A DNA stretch of 64,000 bases. Source: Planctomyces sp. SH-PL62 (GTDB lineage Bacteria; Planctomycetota; Planctomycetia; Planctomycetales; Planctomycetaceae). The notes below the pieces were generated by a model. It was not told the origin of the DNA. It did no database searches and saw only the letters and a list, made by a program, of their open reading frames with translations. Positions 34,729 to 64,000 of the stretch are shown here, in pieces; the first letter of the stretch is position 1, and each line of letters starts with the position of its first letter. A program made the translations under genes and the position numbers. The stretch lies in the NCBI GenBank assembly GCA_945893045.1, contig CAMDEA010000012.1, positions 1 through 64,000 on the forward strand. The letters are read 5' to 3'.

Positions 34729-36231
34729 TCAGAATGACTCCGGCAACGCCGAGTGCCGATACATATTCCGCAACGCCGAATCGCACAGGCCGACCACATT
34801 AAACGGCCGGATCGCCGCCGCCAACTCGCTCTCGAATTCCGCAACGTCGGCCACTTCACGCAGCCGGTCACACATCCGCCGCACAACCGGCAGCCAAGCT
34901 GGATCATTCGCCAGCAAAAAGGCCGGTTGAAATTCTCCGATGCTCGCGACACGAGCACGCTCATAACTTGTCGCCGCCGCGAAGTAGAGCATCGTGGCGG
35001 CGGCGAAGCGACGAAAGTCTCCCAACCCCGCGAAGCAGCCGCTGACTAGCAGGTCGATCATTTCGACCTCGCCCAAGACGCAGCGTTCGTATTCACGTAG
35101 TCGTAATTCCAAATCGTCACGGCCGAGCGACCGAATCAGAATGCGAGCCAGCCGCTCGATCCCGCAGAGCGTGTGCGCGATCCCGGAACTGTGCAGCGCG
35201 TCGATGAAGCCCGCCGTGTTCGGCAACATCGCCCACCAGGCACCGGCCGCGCGGGCCACCTTGCGTTGCAACCGCCCAGTGCTGCGCAGACCACCAACCG
35301 GTCGGACGATTTTCGCGTTCGCGAATTGCTCGCCGACGGACGGGTATCGGCGCAACCAGGAATCCCATTCGTCGCTCGCCGAAAGATTCGGCCGCTCGCC
35401 ACGATTCAAGTCCTGCACGAAACCGGCGCTGAGGGTCTCGTCATTGAACCGCAGTTGCCACATCCAACCGGCATCGAAAGCGTGATGCAGCGCGGCGTGA
35501 TCGCAGTCGAACGGATGCTCGGCCGTGTCGAGGCCGCGTGATTCCATGCAGCGCTTCCAGCGAGTCACGTCCGCGAAGTGAGCGAACACCGCTCGTGAAT
35601 TCGTCCGCAGTTCAAGCGTCCGATTTTCGATTCCCAATTGCTTCGCGAGAAATCCCCCTTCGCCACTCGCATCGACAACGAAGCGAGTCCGCACCTCGTG
35701 GGGCAGGTTTCCAACCTGCCCGTGCTTCAAGGGCAGGTTGAAAACCTGCCCCACGCCGGGCAATTCAATCTCCCCGATGTCGCACTGCTCAAAACAGATC
35801 GCCCCTGCCGCGCGAGCCTCTTCAAACAAAAACCCATCGACATCCTGCCGCAACCAGTGCGTATCCGAATGCTGATCGCTGCTGCTGGCCGCGACGAGCA
35901 ACTCCGTCGAATGCTCCGCATCCGCCAGGAACGGCTGACCGGCCTCGTGATGAAAGTACGAAAACCCACGCTTGATCCCAGAGACCAGTTGCGGATGCGT
36001 CGCCTGCCAGGTGCCATACTTCGCCAACGGAGCGACTCGCGGCAGGTCATACTCGCGGCACAAGTCCTTCAACACGAGATTCGCAATCGGAGTGGATGAC
36101 TCACCAATCGCAAACCGCGGATGCCGGCCTTTGTCGATCAAGGCAACGCTCAACCCCGCGCGCCGCAGCACCAGCGCCAGCAAGCTGCCGCCGAAACCTC
36201 CACCCACAATCGCCACTTCCACTTCCAGCAT
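34729..36231 (-). CDS. flavin-dependent halogenase-like FAD oxidoreductase
   Basis: 500 residues. The start ATG at 36231 is preceded by AAGGGGACAC and the protein begins MLEVEVAIVGGGFGGSLLAL, the FAD site GxGxxG. Then comes IGESSTPIANLVLKDL, FVVDASGEGGFLAK, and near 250 the segment AGWMWQLRFND, which resembles the WxWxIP motif of FAD halogenases and related monooxygenases. The coding frame contains a 57-bp palindromic element (35698-35754) that adds 19 residues including GQVFNLPLKHGQVGNL. Substrate and halogenation are unproven, because the usual tryptophan-halogenase Lys site is not certain. The radical SAM gene lies upstream on the same strand. Confidence 0.85.
   Translation of the reverse strand: MLEVEVAIVGGGFGGSLLALVLRRAGLSVALIDKGRHPRFAIGESSTPIANLVLKDLCREYDLPRVAPLAKYGTWQATHPQLVSGIKRGFSYFHHEAGQPFLADAEHSTELLVAASSSDQHSDTHWLRQDVDGFLFEEARAAGAICFEQCDIGEIELPGVGQVFNLPLKHGQVGNLPHEVRTRFVVDASGEGGFLAKQLGIENRTLELRTNSRAVFAHFADVTRWKRCMESRGLDTAEHPFDCDHAALHHAFDAGWMWQLRFNDETLSAGFVQDLNRGERPNLSASDEWDSWLRRYPSVGEQFANAKIVRPVGGLRSTGRLQRKVARAAGAWWAMLPNTAGFIDALHSSGIAHTLCGIERLARILIRSLGRDDLELRLREYERCVLGEVEMIDLLVSGCFAGLGDFRRFAAATMLYFAAATSYERARVASIGEFQPAFLLANDPAWLPVVRRMCDRLREVADVAEFESELAAAIRPFNVVGLCDSALRNMYRHSALPESF
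35698..35754. repeat. in-frame palindromic element (family G), 57 bp, in the flavoprotein gene
   Basis: GTGGGGCAGG at the left and CCTGCCCCAC at the right end the element, and inside there are two hairpin units, GGCAGGTTTCCAACCTGCC and GGCAGGTTGAAAACCTGCC. The length of 57 is 19 codons, so the host frame is preserved. Confidence 0.95.
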
Positions 36232-36347: not shown

Positions 36348-37535
36348 TCATGACCGATTGATCATCACCGCCGAGTGAGGCGACGGCTGGCATCCCGGAC
36401 AGACGACCGGCGACCGGATCGTCTGCGACAAATTCATTTGCCGCAACCGCTCGACCCGCTCGGCCGCACACGTCGTGCAGGCGGCGAAGCGAGCGGCATC
36501 CCACGTGTCGGCGAAGACTCGGCCGCGTTGCATTTCGATTCCGGTCGCTAAGACGTCCTCCAGTGAAGCCAGATTCGGTGGAGAGAAACGTCCCTCCGCT
36601 TGCAGTCGCTCCATCGTTCCGTTGCCCGCACGTGTCGGAATCACTGAGACGCATGTCACTCCACAATCGAACGCGAACGTGATCGACCGCAGCGCCCAAT
36701 CGACCCCTTCCGCTTCGGACAAGAACGGCGGCCGCAGCAGCACGAACGCGCGGACGGCGATGTCATGCTCGACCAGAAACCGCGCCGCCCGCTCAAAGTC
36801 ACCGAGCGTCATGCGCTTGTTCATCCGCGCGAGCACGTCCGGGTGTACCGTCTCCAATCCCATCGCGACTTCCAGGTGGACGTCACGGGGTCGGGAGTCT
36901 TTTTCCGAGCGGCCTTCCTCATCACATTGTCGCTCCAACGACGTCGGGCCGCTCGAAAAAAGACTCCCGACCCCTTCGCGTGGCAGGTTAAGAAGTTCGC
37001 GAAACCGCAAACAGCGATCATCAATCAGCAGCGGATGGTTCTCGACGATGACTCGCTCGAACTGCCGCACACGATCGGCAATCGCCGGCCAGTCGTCGGG
37101 CGGAATCGCGGAGGCATCGAAGAAGTTGCCACTGTTGTAGAGCTTCACGACGCTGGGAGCAGGACGGGGTCGGGAGTCTTTTTCCGAGCGGCCCGCTGCT
37201 GAATGTTGCTGATCCAACAACGACGGGCCGCTCGGAAAAAGACTCCAAACCCCTTCGCGTGGGCAAATCTCATCCAGCGCGATGTCGATCTGCTTCGGCA
37301 CCGCACCGCGCGGCGTCGGCTCATCCAGCGTGTGCCGCCAGAGATCGCAGTACACGCAGCGGAACGAACACTCGCGATTCGCCAAGAAAATCGTGGCCAC
37401 GTCAACCACGCGCCCGTCGGCTTGCCGCTCCGGTTCGACGAACGAGGCAATCGGTCGCCACGGATCGACCAGCGCTTTCGGACCACGCGCGGCGAGGACT
37501 TCACGATCGGTGAGTTTGGGGAAAAATGGTATCAC
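36348..37535 (-). CDS. radical SAM protein related to the archaeosine synthase partner family
   Basis: About 395 residues if the GTG at 37535 starts the protein; no ATG fits before the conserved [19 protein letters not shown]. The iron-sulfur site is [12 protein letters not shown] (CxxxCxxC). [17 protein letters not shown] and, later, [20 protein letters not shown] and [20 protein letters not shown] resemble COG1244/RaSEA proteins, although RaSEA has a longer Cys spacing. A C-terminal CTTC and CPGC may bind another metal. Two in-frame palindromic elements of 99 bp each lengthen the protein by 66 residues. The gene diverges from queC (37675), which supports a link with deazaguanine chemistry as inference only. 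Confidence 0.8.
36885..36983. repeat. in-frame palindromic element (family F), copy 1, 99 bp
   Basis: GGGGTCGGGAGTCTTTTTCC and GAGCGGCC at the left pair with GGCCGCTCGAAAAAAGACTC and CCGACCCC at the right. It encodes [18 protein letters not shown] and following residues in the radical SAM protein. Copies 1 and 2 share ends from ACGGGG to CGCGTGG, 99 bases, exactly 33 codons. Confidence 0.96.
37164..37262. repeat. in-frame palindromic element (family F), copy 2, 99 bp
   Basis: Second copy, same length and same terminal bases as copy 1, encoding [18 protein letters not shown] and following residues. It lies about 180 bases from copy 1 within the same gene. Confidence 0.96.
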
Positions 37536-37568
37536 GGCTATCGGCGGTCGGCTTACGGCGATCGGCCG
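37528..37568. repeat. half of family E palindrome at the radical SAM gene start
   Basis: TGGTATCACGGCTATCGGCG followed by GTCGGCTTACGGCGATCGG matches one arm of the complete element at 47667-47737. The candidate GTG start of the radical SAM gene lies in it. Confidence 0.75.
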
Positions 37569-37674
37569 GAGAAGTCGCGCGCAATGCGTTCCTTTTCCCC
37601 AGGCACGTTGCCCACAAGAATACCGCTGCCTCAGAAACTCGAAAGCAACTGTGTTTGAAAACAACAGTGAGACC

Positions 37675-38373
37675 ATGAGCAACATTCCGCCAAAAGCAGT
37701 CGTCCTCCTCAGCGGCGGACTCGATTCCGCGACCGTGCTGGCAATCGCACGGCAGCAAGGCTTTGAAACCTTCGCCCTCTCCATCGACTACGGCCAGCGG
37801 CATCGGTTCGAGTTGGAAGCCGCGCGGCGCGTCTGCCAGTCACTCGGAGCCAAACAGCATCGGGTGTTTCAAATTGACTTGCGGCAGTTCGGCGGTTCGG
37901 CACTGACGGCCGACATCGCCGTTCCGAAGGATCGCAGCGACGCACAGCTTCACTCCGGCATCCCGATTACTTACGTCCCGGCTCGCAACACGATCTTCTT
38001 GTCGCTGGCGCTCGGCTGGGCTGAAGTGCTCGGCGCGTTTGACCTGTTCATCGGCGTCAACGCGGTCGATTACAGCGGCTACCCCGATTGCCGGCCGGAG
38101 TTCATCCAAGCGTTTGCTGAGGTCGCGCGGCTCGGCACCAAAGCGGGAGCCGAACGGACCGGGCGATTCGTGATTCATTCACCGCTGATCTCACTGTCAA
38201 AAGCCGAGATCATTCGTCGTGGCGTCGCACTCGGTGTCGATTACGGTTTGACGACCAGTTGCTACGACCCCGACTCGGCGGGCCGGCCCTGTGGCCATTG
38301 CGATTCCTGCCAACTGCGTCGAAAAGGCTTCGCCGAAGCGGGGCGCGTCGATCCGCTGCCGTACCGGGATTGA
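37675..38373 (+). CDS. queC: 7-cyano-7-deazaguanine synthase
   Basis: 232 residues. The ATP pyrophosphatase loop is [17 protein letters not shown] and the zinc site is [18 protein letters not shown] (four Cys), as in Que[21 protein letters not shown] and [14 protein letters not shown] are also characteristic. The enzyme converts 7-carboxy-7-deazaguanine to preQ0 with ATP and ammonia, for queuosine or other deazaguanine products. The start ATG at 37675 gives the normal length; longer frame sequence upstream overlaps the divergent radical SAM gene. The glycosyltransferase gene follows after 8 bases. Confidence 0.97.
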
Positions 38374-44138: not shown

Positions 44139-44218
44139 GTGAGAGGGACGGCGCTAGCCGCCGGTCTTGCATGGAAAATCGATTCCACGACACCGGTGGC
44201 TAGCGCCATTCCGCTCAC
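44139..44218. repeat. family D palindromic element, 80 bp
   Basis: GTGAGAGGGACGGCGCTAGC at the left pairs with GGCTAGCGCCATTCCGCTCAC at the right; the centre has ATGGAAAATCGATTCCACGA. It is the same length and shares the centre and arms with the copy at 59253-59332. Confidence 0.93.
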
Positions 44219-44310
44219 AACCCAGTTGGGCGAACCACGCCCGCCTATCGCAATAATGAACGGCGCGAGGATAGGCCGTATTCCGTCTTTGGCTCAAGAC
44301 GGGTTCGGCT

Positions 44311-58500: not shown

Positions 58501-59256
58501 CAACGCGAGAACTCCGACAGTCCGTTCCGAACGGAGGATCATGTCGAGCGCGGGCGGCTGTTGCTGCGCGATGGACAGCATTCGGAATCGTTAGCCGCAT
58601 TCGATGCGGCCTTGGAGCTTCAGAAGGATCACTCGCTGGCTCAGCGGCTGCGAGCCGAGACGCTGTTCCATCTCCGCCGGTTCGAGGAAGTCATCGAGTC
58701 CTTCGACCGTTACTTGGAGAACGGCAAGCCGCTGGAGTCTGTCTATCGAGGACGTGGCTTGGCGAAGTCCGAGTTGGGCAAATACCCCGGTGCGATCGAG
58801 GACTTCACGAAGGCTCTGGAACTCCAGCCGACCTCGGCCGTGCAGGCGTATCGGGGCTGGATGCACGTCGTCTGCGAAGCCCCCAAGCTGGCCGAACGGG
58901 ACTTCCAATTGGCCATCGAATTGGACCCCAAAAACAGCGACGCCTACGCCGGCCGTGGCTTTGTGCGGGCCATCGCCAAGCAGTCTCAGGAAGCCATTGA
59001 AGACGCCGAAGAAGCACTCAGGCTGGGGCCGCGCACCCCCCGATTGATTTACAGCGCGGCCCGCATCCACGCCCAGGCCGCCGGAGCGGGTGACTCGCGG
59101 GTCTTTGAACTGATCAGCGAAGCCCTGGCCTTGTTGCCCGACGAGCAACGCTCCGCGTTCTGGACTACTCAGGTCCGAACTGATTCGGCCCTGGCCGCGA
59201 TCCGCAAACATCCGCGGTTCGTGCAACTGGAAAAAGAGATGTTGTCGAAGAAGTGA
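55504..59256 (+). CDS. Ser/Thr protein kinase with TM helix and TPR repeats
   Basis: 1250 residues. The start is uncertain: TTG at 55504 is the first start codon of the frame. Residues about 60-190 hold two diverged copies of a segment (TIAREPGTVLLETDD and TIARDPDTMLLETDG, each followed by PADDLLT). The kinase domain (about 205-495) has LGRGGMGVVYKARHRKLHRL, VALKMIL, IVHRDLKPANILL, DFGLAKR and GTPSYMAPEQARGK, all intact. Then comes a TM helix (MVALMGVSVVAALSMVLMVI), a coiled region and about ten TPR repeats. The layout, intracellular kinase and external TPR sensor, is common in planctomycetes. The stop codon is in a family D palindrome. Confidence 0.9.
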   Translation: MTECRKGQFVAWRDWLNLVGLASRRSTSASDATTIDFEHPTPPDLAQRSVAPTVIFTPPTSDDAATVQQPTIAREPGTVLLETDDRRPAQKYPADDLLTVANFTSDNDLTGFIPSDQTEAGLSISPNRDSDSADQQQTIARDPDTMLLETDGTKSPRKNPADDLLTAAGSSSGDELTGVYAGNQPAASKTTPADPLPLEAVIVPGYDILEELGRGGMGVVYKARHRKLHRLVALKMILAGAHAGASGLARFRAEAAAVAQLQHSNIVQIYEISEHEGRPYFSLELIEGGSLDRCTRENPPSPRAAARLVETLALAMGFAHQRGIVHRDLKPANILLASISGLSSVSRREQLSGDTLPVDHWSRNTVPKITDFGLAKRVDDESGMTHTGTIVGTPSYMAPEQARGKIHEVGPLSDIYSLGAIFYELLTGRPPFKAGNPIDTIRQVVDQEPVPPRQIEPRVPLDLETICLKCLQKESSRRYETAEALADDLHRFLSQEPILARPISTTERAWKWAKRRPAMVALMGVSVVAALSMVLMVIWHNVSLSERLDEALADERKAQQRADSATEEQRLFRVQNEGQKLFDSARVAAAAGNWPNARLELTKALTIIRRESQLDTLKKPAEELLAKVEQELQQVEQQQQAEAAQRTAQTQFQKFADLRDEAQFLGSLYTGMDLAANLKASRAAVYAALDVYGVSLKEDIPPKLNEHLKETQKSEIIADVYQLILILAETEAESAPDQKSPEQTAQLREALQLLDQSLRFGSPSRAYHLRRARYLSRLDDDEAAVQAEEAAQAAPVTDVLDHFLMADEFYRRANFDEAIEQFEQVLQRKPDHFWAQYLNGLCLLRQNRHAEAKSALTACLAQGREFVWLYLLRGFAHGELKAWDAADADFHKALLMPLDDNSRYVLFVNRGVLRIRQERYADAIADLNEAIKLKPTEYQAFVNMAQAYRRLNDLDAALKQLDLAIGHEPSLAHLYRLRARLHLERNEPAMALADFDQTIQRENSDSPFRTEDHVERGRLLLRDGQHSESLAAFDAALELQKDHSLAQRLRAETLFHLRRFEEVIESFDRYLENGKPLESVYRGRGLAKSELGKYPGAIEDFTKALELQPTSAVQAYRGWMHVVCEAPKLAERDFQLAIELDPKNSDAYAGRGFVRAIAKQSQEAIEDAEEALRLGPRTPRLIYSAARIHAQAAGAGDSRVFELISEALALLPDEQRSAFWTTQVRTDSALAAIRKHPRFVQLEKEMLSKK

Positions 59257-59332
59257 GCGGTACGGCGCTGGCCGCCGGTGTCGCGTGGAGAATCGATTCC
59301 ACGACACCGGCGGCTAGCGCCGTGCCGCTCAC
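59253..59332. repeat. family D palindromic element, 80 bp, with the kinase stop inside
   Basis: GTGAGCGGTACGGCGCTGGC at the left pairs with GCTAGCGCCGTGCCGCTCAC at the right, and the centre is GAGAATCGATTCCACGACAC. The kinase gene stop TGA (59254-59256) lies in the left arm. Confidence 0.94.
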
Positions 59333-59347
59333 AGAGGAAAACGATTC

Positions 59348-62300
59348 GTGATCATTCGGTGCCGAGGTTGGTCGCAACGCCGACGTTCCAGACGCCCTCG
59401 GCCAGCTTGGTCGTGTGCCTTGGAGCGGTTGGAAGGTCGTGGCTTGCTCAGCACAGACCCGTTGGTGGTGGCGATCAACCCGACTCCGGCCAATGTGACG
59501 GATCGCTCGATCGTCACGGCGAATGAAGTGGACTCGTACTCGTTCACGATTCGCGATGCGCTGGGCGGCGGAGTTTTGAATGTCGCTCTCGCCGCCACCA
59601 GCGTGGCGCTTGCCCCGCGTTTGACGCTCGCGCGAACGGATGAGACCGTTCTGATTCAATCCGACAGCGGTCACATCGGGCAGCACTTGAAGCCGGGAAC
59701 GTATTTGTTGAGCGTCTCGGCGCAATCGGGACAGGGCGACTATCGGTTGAGCACGCAGTTCACTCCGACTCAAGATCCCTTCCAACCGCCTGGGACAGGG
59801 AAGCGTCCGACGCTCGCGGTGGCGGACGTCAATGGCGACGGCTCCGACGATTTGATCACGGCAAACTACAACGACGACAGCGTGAGCGTCTTGCTGGGTG
59901 CTGGTGATGGCTCGTTCCAGGCGTTTACAAATTTTGCGGTGGACTCGTGGCCGCTGCGGATCTCAATGGCGACGGCTTTGCCGACATCGTCACGGGCAAC
60001 TACCTCAGCGGTGGCACGGTCAGCGTGCTGCTGGGAAATGGCAACGGCACCTTTCGGCCGACACAGAATTTCACGACGGGGGACGGTGCCCTCTTCCCGG
60101 TGATCGCCGACGTCAACGGCGACGGGCGGCCGGACATCGTCACCGGCAACTACCGAGCTGGCACCGTAAGCGTGCTGTTGGGAAACGATGACGGCAGCGG
60201 ACATGGCGACGGCACATTTGAGACTCTGCCGGAGATGGTGGTCGGTGCGTATGCCGCGTTCGTGTCCGTGGCCGACGTCAACGGCGACTCGCGGCCCGAC
60301 ATCATTAGCCCCAACGGCAGCGATTCTGTGAGCGTGCTCCTGAACCTGGGAAACGGGCCGGACGGCAAGCCTGTGTTTCAGGATCAGCTTCAGTTTCCCA
60401 CGACCGATTTTCCCTTCGCAGTCGGGATTGCCGACTTCAACGGAGACGGCAAACCGGACTTGGCCAGCGCTCATCGCAACGATGACACGGTTCGCTTGCA
60501 GGTTGGAATCGGCAACGGCACGTTCGGGGCCGAAGTCAGCTTTGACGTCGGCGATACTCCCTATGCGATGGTCGTGGCGGATGTGAACGGCGACGGCCGC
60601 CCCGATATCGCGGTCGCGAACCGCAACGCCGGCACGGTCAGCGTGCTGCTGAGCAAAGGGAACGGCACGTTCCAACCCCAGGTGACGCTTCCGGTCGGTC
60701 AGCGGCCTTTGACCATTCGAGCAGCGGACATCAATCGCGATGGGCACACCGATCTGCTCGCCGCCAATGCCGACGACAATACCGTCAGCGTGTTGCTGGG
60801 ACGCGGCGACGGATCGTTCTCTTTCCCGGCCGGGGCCGTCGCCGCGGCTGGCAAGCGCCCGTTTCTTTTTGCAGTTGGCGATCTCCGCGGCGACGGACAT
60901 GCCGACATCGTCACCGCCAACAGTTCCAACGGCTCGTTGAGCATTCTGCTCGGCGCGACGGACGGCTCGTTCCAGCCACACCAGACTCTCGACGTCGGCG
61001 ACCAGCCGATCGGCGTGGCGATGGCGGACTTCAATGGTGACGGCAAGCTCGATCTGGTGGTCACCAATAAAGCGGACGACACGGTGGGCGTGCTTCTGGC
61101 GCTGGACACGGGCGGCTTCGGGCCGCAGACAACATTCGCCGTGGGAACGAAGCCGTTGTATGTCGTGACGGCCGATCTCAACGGCGATGACGACCTGGAC
61201 ATTGTTGTGACCAACAACACCGGCACCTCGGTCAGCGTGCTGCTGGGAAACGGCGACGGAAGTTTTGCCCCGCAACAACAGTTGACGACCGGCGCAACCA
61301 CGTATGGAGTGGCCGTGGCGGACGTCAACGGCGACGGCCAACCGGACATCGTGGCCTCCAACTACGGCGACAACTCGGTGAGCGTTCTGCTGGGCAACGG
61401 CAACGGAACCTTTCAGGATCAGCAAGTCGTCGCGAATGTCGGCGCGCTCCCCTCCGCATTGGCTCTGGACAAGGTCAACAGCGATGACTTTCTCGATCTC
61501 GTCGTCGCCCTCGGCGGCGACAACAAAGTGGCGGTGTTGCTGGGCAACGGCGATGGAACATTCCAGCCAGCACAAGCGTTCGACACCGGCGGCGTGCCGA
61601 CCGGAGTGGCGCTGGCACGCTTCAACAACGACACGTTCCTCGATGTTGTGGTCTCCAATCGCGCCGACAACAGCGTCAGCGTGCTCCTGGGAAACGGTGA
61701 CGGCACGCTTCAGGTCCACCAGACTTTTGACGTCGGCCGACAGCCTTTTTCCGTGGCGGCCACTGACGTCACCGGCGACGGTCGCCCCGACATCATCACC
61801 GCCAACGCCTCGGACAGCACTGTGAGCGTGCTGGAAGGCCAAGGCGATGGCACCTTCTCACCACAGAGTCCGTTCGCACTCGGCAAGCGGCCTTATGCCG
61901 TGGTCGTTGCCGATGTCAGCGGCGACGGAAATCCGGACACCATCACCGCCAACTACAACGCCGGCACGGTCAGCTTCGCGCGAGGCAACGGCAACGGCTC
62001 GTTTCAGACACCGCAATCGTTCGCCGTCGGGAACAAACCTTTGGCGGTCACGCTGGCCGACCTGAATCGCGATGGTCGGTCCGATCTCGTGACGGCCAAC
62101 AGCGCCGACAATTCGGTGAGCGTGCTGCTGGGCAACGGTGATGGCACCTTCCAAACGCAGCGCGCGACCAACGTCGGCCGGCGGCCTTCCGATGTGACCG
62201 TTGCGGACATCAACGGCGACGGACATCTCGACTTGATCGTCGGCAACTACGACGACGATTCCGTCAGCGTGCTCCTCGGCCGAGGCGATGGCTCGTTCGC

Positions 62301-64000
62301 TGTTCAATCTGCCGCAGGCAGATTTGCCGTCGGCAATGGTCCCAATGCCCTGAGCGCTGCCGACCTCAACGGCGACAACAAGCCCGACCTCGTCGTCGCG
62401 AACATCTTCGACGATACGGTGAGCGTACTGCTCAACACGGGGACCGGAGTTGGCGGCAACGCTTCGTTTCAGTCTCAAGTAGCATTCGCCGTCGGCGCGC
62501 AGCCTTACGATGTCGCCATCGCCGACGTCGATGGCGACGGCCAGCCGGATCTGATCACGGCGAACTACGGCGGCAACAGCGTCAGCGTTCTGCGGGGAAA
62601 CGGGCTGGGTTCCTTCGGCACGCAGCAGATTGCGTCCGTCGGTGAGCGGCCGGTGGCGGTCTCCGTGGCGGACGTCAACGGCGATCGACGGCCGGACCTC
62701 GTCACCACCAACCGCCGCGATGGCACCTTGAGCGTTCTTCAGAACAACGGCGGCACCTTCGCGCTTTCGCAAACATTGGACGCCGGTACTCAGCCGGTCT
62801 CGACCGCTGTGACGAACGTCAACGGCGATGGCCGACCCAGCATCGTCACCGTCAATTACAGCAACCGCACGCCGCGCGTCTTGTTGGCCAGCACCAGCTC
62901 CTTCAATCCCGCCACTCCTGGCAATGCGACCGAGAGCTTGAACAACACGGCGCTGGTGGATCTCACCCGCGACGGCATCCGCGACAGCGTCATCCTGGAC
63001 GCCTCGGGCAACGTCTTGTTCCGTCAAGGATTGGCCGGCAGCGACGGTGCCTTCGTGCCCCCGATGATCCTCAACGCCGACCGGCGCGCCCGCGACCTGA
63101 CGATCGTGAACAACGGCAGCAGTCTGAGCGTCGCCACCGCCGATTCGAGTTTCGATCCGGTCCTGAGCGCCGCGGCCAACCAGTTTCTTTATACGGTGTC
63201 GCTCTACGCGGTCTCCGCCGGATCAGTCACCCGCACCACGGCCTTTACGTCGCTGCTGCTGCCGACGCGCATCGTGGCGGCGGATCTGACCGGTGACAGC
63301 CGAGACGACATCGTCGTGGCCAACTCGTTGGACAACAGCATTCAGGTGTCTTTCTTTCAGCAACTCAATCACTCGTTCAGCGAGCCGATCACCCTGACCA
63401 CGGGCGAGGCCCCTTCCAACGTTGTGGTCGTGGACATCAACGGCGACGGCTTACGAGACATCGTGGCGACGGACCAAGCTTCCGGCGACATCAGCGTTTT
63501 TCTCAATGACATCAGCCATTCGTTCAGCACCAGCCTCCGCTTTCGCGCCGGCAACGGACTGTTTGGCTTGGACACGACCGGCTCGGCCCCCGTGGTCACG
63601 AGCCTGCTGCAATCCGTCAGCCTCGCGGCCGGTGACTTCACTGGTCTCGGCCGCAATGACCTCGTTGTGGTCAACCGAGGCACGCATTCCTTCAGCGTCT
63701 TGTCCAACAACGGCCGCGGTGGTTTCGACAATCCCAGCTTGAGTCTGACGACTTCCACCAGCGATGGCTTCGACATCAACAACCAACCCGGTGCCGTCGT
63801 GGCCGGCGACTTCAATCGGGATGGTCGGCTCGACGTGTCCGTGCTGATGGAAGACACCGGCGAGCTGTGGATCTTCACCAAACAAACCAACGGTTCTTTT
63901 CGCCACACGTTTTCGATCCCGGTCGGCGATCAAGCCACGGGGTTGTCCGTGATCCCCGGCAGCAGCGACGGGCTGTTGGATTTGCTCGTCGGCAACGGCT
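59348..64000 (+). CDS. giant VCBS/FG-GAP repeat protein with LEPR-XLL-like N-terminus (frameshifted, continues past window)
   Basis: GTG start at 59348, with AGAGGA nine bases upstream. The N-terminus has ALERLEGRGLLS, resembling the planctomycete LEPR-XLL motif. Then about twenty repeats follow of the type VADVNGDGRPDIVTANY ... SVSVLLGNGDGTF, each carrying a DxNxDG calcium site. Between 59908 and 59947 the frame moves by one: the first frame runs to a stop at 60103, while the repeats continue in another frame to the window end with no stop. A single missing base at the GCGGTGG/ACTCG junction would restore FAVG-LVAAADLNGDG. So this is either a pseudogene, a sequencing error or programmed frameshift. 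It would be a very large cell-surface or secreted protein. Confidence 0.9.

Follow-up and report, generated by a model that had tools for sequence, protein, structure and literature searches.

A REPIN-like Palindromic Repeat in Frame within a Planctomycete Halogenase-like Gene and the Joint Switching of Its Arms

Introduction

Regarding small palindromes within genes, Di Nocera et al. (2013, PMC3733652) described singlets and dimers of GTAG/CGTC-family REPs inside the ORFs of unrelated proteins, where over half of the intragenic inserts are dimers or groups encoding 20–30 amino acids. In the same work, different REPs were located at about the same recB site in two Xanthomonas species, the removal of inactivating REP insertions was proposed, and REPs were reported from Planctomycetes. 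The RPEs of Rickettsia are palindromic repeats of 105–146 bp, found in frame within conserved protein genes and also in intergenic regions (PMC2229807). A REPIN, meanwhile, pairs two REPs in inverted orientation around a variable spacer and folds into a single long hairpin, and REPINs constitute a dispersed population (Bertels and Rainey 2011, PMC3116915); a passage of that paper cites Higgins et al. (1988), since when it has been asked whether REPs evolve by gene conversion. The homogenisation of repeat arms by template switching has been described in yeast genes and RNA genes (PMC8604942; PMC8794818). In-frame palindromic insertion is thus already known, from intragenic REPs and RPEs, and the newer part of the present analysis is the coordinated switching of arms in orthologous coding copies. 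A literature search of partial coverage returned no planctomycete in-frame REP paper besides PMC3733652 and no paper on the family described here or on such switching.

The element under study lies in a window of 64,000 nucleotides, bases 1–64,000 of contig C12 in a 7.83-Mb assembly (G000), 89% complete, of an uncultured planctomycete in which this selfish-looking short palindrome has about a hundred copies. With considerable confidence, it can be read as a REPIN-like non-autonomous palindromic repeat, whose history would combine spread as single-stranded DNA, the survivorship of frame-keeping copies and a later conversion of arms. The census covered a sampled part of G000, namely 60 regions around copies on contigs C1–C74, which gave 67 elements; orthologous sites were obtained by flank searches and from regions fetched in G065, G155, G144 and G046, the genomes compared being mostly draft assemblies.

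The Element and Its Host Gene

The 57-bp element (35698–35754) is a doublet with the order GTGG-GGCAGGTT-TCC-AACCTGCC-CGTGCTTCAAG-GGCAGGTT-GAA-AACCTGCC-CCAC. Hairpin 1 (GGCAGGTT-TCC-AACCTGCC) occupies 35702–35720 and hairpin 2 (GGCAGGTT-GAA-AACCTGCC) 35732–35750, both read on the forward strand, separated by the spacer CGTGCTTCAAG (35721–35731), which is CTTGAAGCACG on the coding strand. Moreover, the element as a whole is an inverted repeat, with arms at 35697–35724 and 35728–35755 that are 93% complementary. As a single strand, it folds at −34.4 kcal/mol, compared to −13.7 ± 2.6 for its shuffles (z = −7.9), none of 200 shuffles being as good.

The host gene, on the reverse strand (34729–36231), encodes a 500-aa FAD-dependent halogenase-like flavoprotein with Pfam matches to Trp_halogenase (1.1e-13) and DAO (1.1e-8), and a matching protein was found in 100 of the 100 sampled genomes of the order. 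Its frame is open straight through the element, as an earlier sequence-only reading of this two-hairpin palindrome had proposed. The 19 codons, read on the reverse strand, encode VGQVFNLPLKHGQVGNLPH, which corrects the peptide GQVFNLPLKHGQVGNL given in that reading. In the alignment, the element falls in a variable segment preceding the conserved F(V/I)(V/I)DA(S/T)G, here FVVDASG. It had also been assumed that the insert adds 19 codons to the protein. However, 48 codons separate the same anchors in the window, in G065 and in the element-free G046 alike, so the element replaced a native loop, and a simple 19-codon addition was rejected from the homologue lengths; homologues outside the genus are a few codons shorter between these anchors. 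An AlphaFold model (36 sequences, mean pLDDT 92.5) places a predicted strand at model residues 163–169, within the insert (159–177) and before the conserved strand 178–186, the confidence of this block being 70–84.

That the element is peculiar to the window genome is not supported, because five species of the genus share the insertion at this site; the insertion is therefore old and most likely predates the separation of these species. Homologous proteins with a segment of the same kind, which the sequence-only reading had named as evidence against its view, thus do occur within the genus, by descent, while none was found among the aligned homologues outside it. In addition, the same loop carries three other palindromes, unrelated to this one, in G071 (L043, 1646–1713) and, in other genera, in G052 (L072, 1204–1283) and G084 (L071, 1184–1265), with arms of 29–30 nt that are 80–93% complementary. 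The earlier suggestion that independent families behave alike holds in this sense, as unrelated palindrome families occupy the same protein loop in other lineages.

Other repeats were observed in the window. The palindromes at 36880–36981 and 37163–37256, with arms of 35 and 33 nt, lie inside two 83%-identical 99-bp copies; they are the radical SAM inserts of the open frame 36348–37784 on the reverse strand, which belong to another family and are likewise in frame. An 81-bp palindromic repeat is present in two copies (44139–44219 and 59253–59333; 88% identical), and an array of degenerate ~147-bp repeats with D-x-N-G-D-G-like motifs, FG-GAP or calcium-binding-like, extends over 59816–63474.

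The Repeat Family and the Search for a Mobiliser

The hairpin occurs 177 times in G000, a high-copy dispersed population as in REPINs, compared to zero for a reversed-pattern control, and between 0 and 318 times per genome across the genus. Inverted doublets make up 54 of the 67 sampled elements, nearly all with GTGG/CCAC ends, and thereby show the inverted REP pair, spacer and long hairpin of a REPIN. The family consensus is C|GTGGGGCAGGTT-TTC-AACCTGCC-spacer-GGCAGGTT-GAA-AACCTGCCCCAC|G, with doublets of 52 to 109 bp and a modal length of 57 bp. Among 94 doublet flanks, the base directly 5′ of GTGG is C in 93% (position 35697 in the window element) and the base one further out is T or A in 81%, from which an apparent target WC|GW was derived. 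Lengths in multiples of three within genes fit insertion without target duplication; no clean empty site was found among the orthologues compared, where element-free orthologues usually have some 8–57 nt of other sequence instead. Other properties depart from those of described REPINs: about 20 of the 67 sampled copies (about 30%) are intragenic rather than extragenic, and the tag is GTGG, at best a GTRG variant of the GTAG superfamily. The copies in conserved protein genes, in frame and absent from homologues, resemble protein-coding repeats of the RPE kind.

There are 11 matches to Y1_Tnp in G000, and their number ranges from 8 to 16 among several relatives. Among 58 loci inspected around PF01797 matches, no Y1 transposase was directly flanked by a REP of the window family, the loci being flanked by other REP families or by none. 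As no RAYT flanked by the same REP was found, the label REPIN-like was preferred to REPIN. The closest case is a GGCACGTT doublet at position 2318 of L303, ~690 bp from a RAYT; this Y1 transposase (L303, 1168–2062) is itself flanked by REPINs CGTAGGTCAGGCTTTCCAGCCTGACC, of a build similar to the window family.

Reading Frame within and outside Genes

When the copies were sorted with a codon model trained on the fetched regions, the 67 elements fell into 21 with an open frame and the same coding phase on both sides, 8 with the same phase and a stop, 17 on the same strand with a different phase and 21 others. The ratio of 8 to 17 is the chance expectation for intergenic copies. One of the copies sorted as open, L144, is probably a 5′ leader, because the start codon comes after the element.

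All 14 open-frame doublets are multiples of three, compared to 21 of 40 elsewhere (Fisher p = 0.0009), and 13 of 13 remain when L144 is set aside, in agreement with the earlier proposal that intragenic copies keep the frame. The 21 of 40 outside genes also exceed one third (p = 0.017), an excess apparently due to 57 bp being the modal length. In addition, the 13 interior doublets are all read in one frame, GTG GGG CAG GTT (VGQVxNLP...GQVxNLPH), whereas three single hairpins and L144 use a different one. This bias is partly due to the target, since in coding DNA 64% of WC|GW occurrences coincide with a codon boundary; even so, 13 of 13 would be unlikely from the target alone (p = 0.006).

Frameshifted host genes were sought among the 25 same-strand copies outside the open class and were rejected, as 22 begin past the stop codon that closes the upstream gene, often by 9 nt or less, and the remaining three (L122, L133 and L150) sit right at a gene's 3′ terminus. 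Of these three, L150 alone has a length that three does not divide (67 bp), and so near the 3′ terminus the frame matters little. Copies in ORFs with such lengths had been named as contrary evidence; L150 is the single one, and the interior doublets are multiples of three without exception. As a separate observation, intergenic copies often stand 0–9 nt past the upstream stop codon (L109, L113, L115, L130, L131, L148, L155, L158 and others).

Most of the hosts tested have Pfam domains (FtsK, MurJ, 2-oxoacid_dh E2, Pkinase, PSCyt/PSD1 and ABC). The ftsK gene carries two inserts, both between the membrane and alpha domains of FtsK, while the insert of the E2 acyltransferase lies between the lipoyl and E3-binding domains and that of MurJ at the N-terminus; further hosts include a protein kinase, PSCyt/PSD1 proteins and an ABC ATPase. 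Survivorship, the loss of out-of-frame insertions from gene bodies, accounts best for the frame pattern and would imply purifying selection. Of the two options offered by the sequence-only reading, the removal of other insertions is thus retained, and a mechanism of in-frame insertion is not needed, since survivorship suffices.

Orthologous Copies and Switching of the Arms

Many orthologous sites in G065, G155 and G144 are occupied at the identical position, often with equal length, as at L110, L119, L122 and L156. Comparing these copies, a complete switch of the arms between GGCAGGTT and GGCACGTT is seen at L110, L112, L119, L122, L123 (the window element), L129 and L156, where CAGG has become CACG in each of the four arms. 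At the window site, the spacer CTTGAAGCACG is near-identical in the five species, with at most 1–2 differences, although the arms differ; at L122, the spacers of the switched orthologues are too divergent to prove descent. Both arm types are present in each genome in different proportions, the GGCAGGTT/GGCACGTT counts being 177/39 in G000 and 58/242 in G065. Half-switched hairpins are few, 24 in 12 genomes, compared to 830 GG hairpins in 11 genomes and 573 CC hairpins in 12. Among the sampled G000 doublets, 52 are all-G, one is all-C and one has a point mutation, none mixing both types.

In 118 orthologous hairpin comparisons, which are not independent events, arm position 5 changed on both sides in 41 cases and on one side in 5, while positions 1–4, 7 and 8, taken together, gave 23 single changes and no paired ones. 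Covariation at the window site counts three pairs changed on both sides, compared to zero for any slid structure. A general hairpin repair as the only process was rejected, as in most of the remaining arm positions the single changes have stayed unpaired. Conversion between copies is favoured, from the switching of position 5 with two abundant donors while unpaired changes elsewhere are left alone.

The strongest alternative is that the paired changes were made in situ within the individual copies, through template switching at quasipalindromes as the DNA is replicated and with no donor copies, a process published for coding inverted repeats (PMC8604942; PMC8794818). The near-constant spacer of the window site, kept while the arms switch, fits this process as well. 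Besides, the copy in SXKJ01000079, matching that of G148, has at the window site the hairpin GGCAGCTT/AAGCTGCC, whose single occurrence in 12 genomes of the genus makes it a paired change without a visible donor, suggesting that in situ paired change also occurs. As the main source of the switching, however, template switching seems doubtful, because, position 5 aside, six of the seven arm positions gave single changes exclusively, so that correction is not general, and because only two alleles dominate position 5, A or T variants there numbering 4 in the genus. Conversion between copies thus remains the preferred explanation for most of the switching. Its widest form, a two-allele system in which genome-wide conversion rewrites all arms of the dispersed palindromes in each lineage, altering many proteins for reasons unrelated to them, is put forward tentatively.

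The G000 ftsK gene contains a half-switched hairpin, GGCAGGTT..AACGTGCC (L136, 3353–3371), which may be an intermediate, its orthologue being of the GG type in G144 and of the CC type in G065. In G065, ~207 bp of mutually nested palindromes (L229, contig C57) stand where G000 has a 63-bp element, and one site in a protein kinase gene has different palindromic sequences in four species (L267, L281 and L254 versus L137).

Proposed History of the Element

Two REP hairpins in inverted orientation, with their GTGG tags outward and a variable spacer, would together form one non-autonomous element. It most likely spread as single-stranded DNA through a transposase of the IS200/IS605 type (RAYT), inserting at WC|GW, presumably without target duplication. 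Insertions in gene bodies would survive only if they kept the frame and fell in a tolerant loop or linker, so that the gene-resident copies are multiples of three with one peptide frame. In the common ancestor of at least five species, one such insertion would have taken over the variable strand-loop of the halogenase-like protein. Afterwards, its arms would have been held complementary by a process acting on the palindrome, mostly conversion between the abundant types GGCAGGTT and GGCACGTT and occasionally a paired change in situ.

A different history, in which one permissive site received distinct elements independently from species to species, is unlikely. It draws on the unrelated palindrome families found at one site in other species (L165, L137, L163 and L111, besides the halogenase loop of G071, G052 and G084). 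However, a common spacer despite differing arms in five species refutes it for the window site, and the equal lengths at the four orthologous loci named above speak against it, given the wide range of doublet lengths. Even less probable is that the palindrome is kept for a structural function in each host gene, as an RNA hairpin, DNA cruciform or protein-binding site: its very stable fold and coordinated arm changes would agree with this, but an Rfam search of the window gave no match, mismatches on one side have been left uncorrected elsewhere in the arms, the host genes are unrelated to one another, and element-free homologues are the rule outside the genus. That the segment is a native, conserved halogenase part, palindromic by accident, can be practically dismissed despite a net length near that of element-free homologues and the strand modelled in the insert, as the repeat census, with the same hairpin 177 times in the genome, refutes it; the segment is also absent from the aligned homologues outside the genus.

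The maintenance of a palindrome can dictate that amino acids change in pairs, which could otherwise be mistaken for protein co-evolution; in the halogenase loop these pairs are Q/H with L/V and V/L with N/K. Orthologous copies in protein genes, having two alleles, known flanks and conserved spacers, allow conversion, template switching and selection to be separated by comparison alone.

Comparison with Known Systems

Like the intragenic REPs of PMC3733652, the window family consists of small palindromic dimers in the ORFs of unrelated proteins; unlike them, it has the tag GTGG and no cognate RAYT was found. The present comparison goes beyond that work in that orthologues were followed across species, with arms switching together, and lengths modulo three were counted. 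By behaviour, the family resembles the RPEs, being in frame in conserved genes and also intergenic, whereas, compared by description, the RPEs are 105–146 bp long and belong to Rickettsia, and the present repeat is a REP doublet of 52–109 bp in a planctomycete. The inverted REP pair, variable spacer and dispersed population are shared with REPINs, but those of PMC3116915 are extragenic with a flanking RAYT, while here about 30% of the sample lies within genes, and the inspected RAYT loci gave none flanked by this REP. Finally, as in the template-switching studies (PMC8604942; PMC8794818), the arms of inverted repeats change jointly in coding DNA with paired amino acid replacements; in contrast to those cases, the present repeats are mobile, dispersed through the genome and dominated by two alleles, so that one copy may also have been converted by another.
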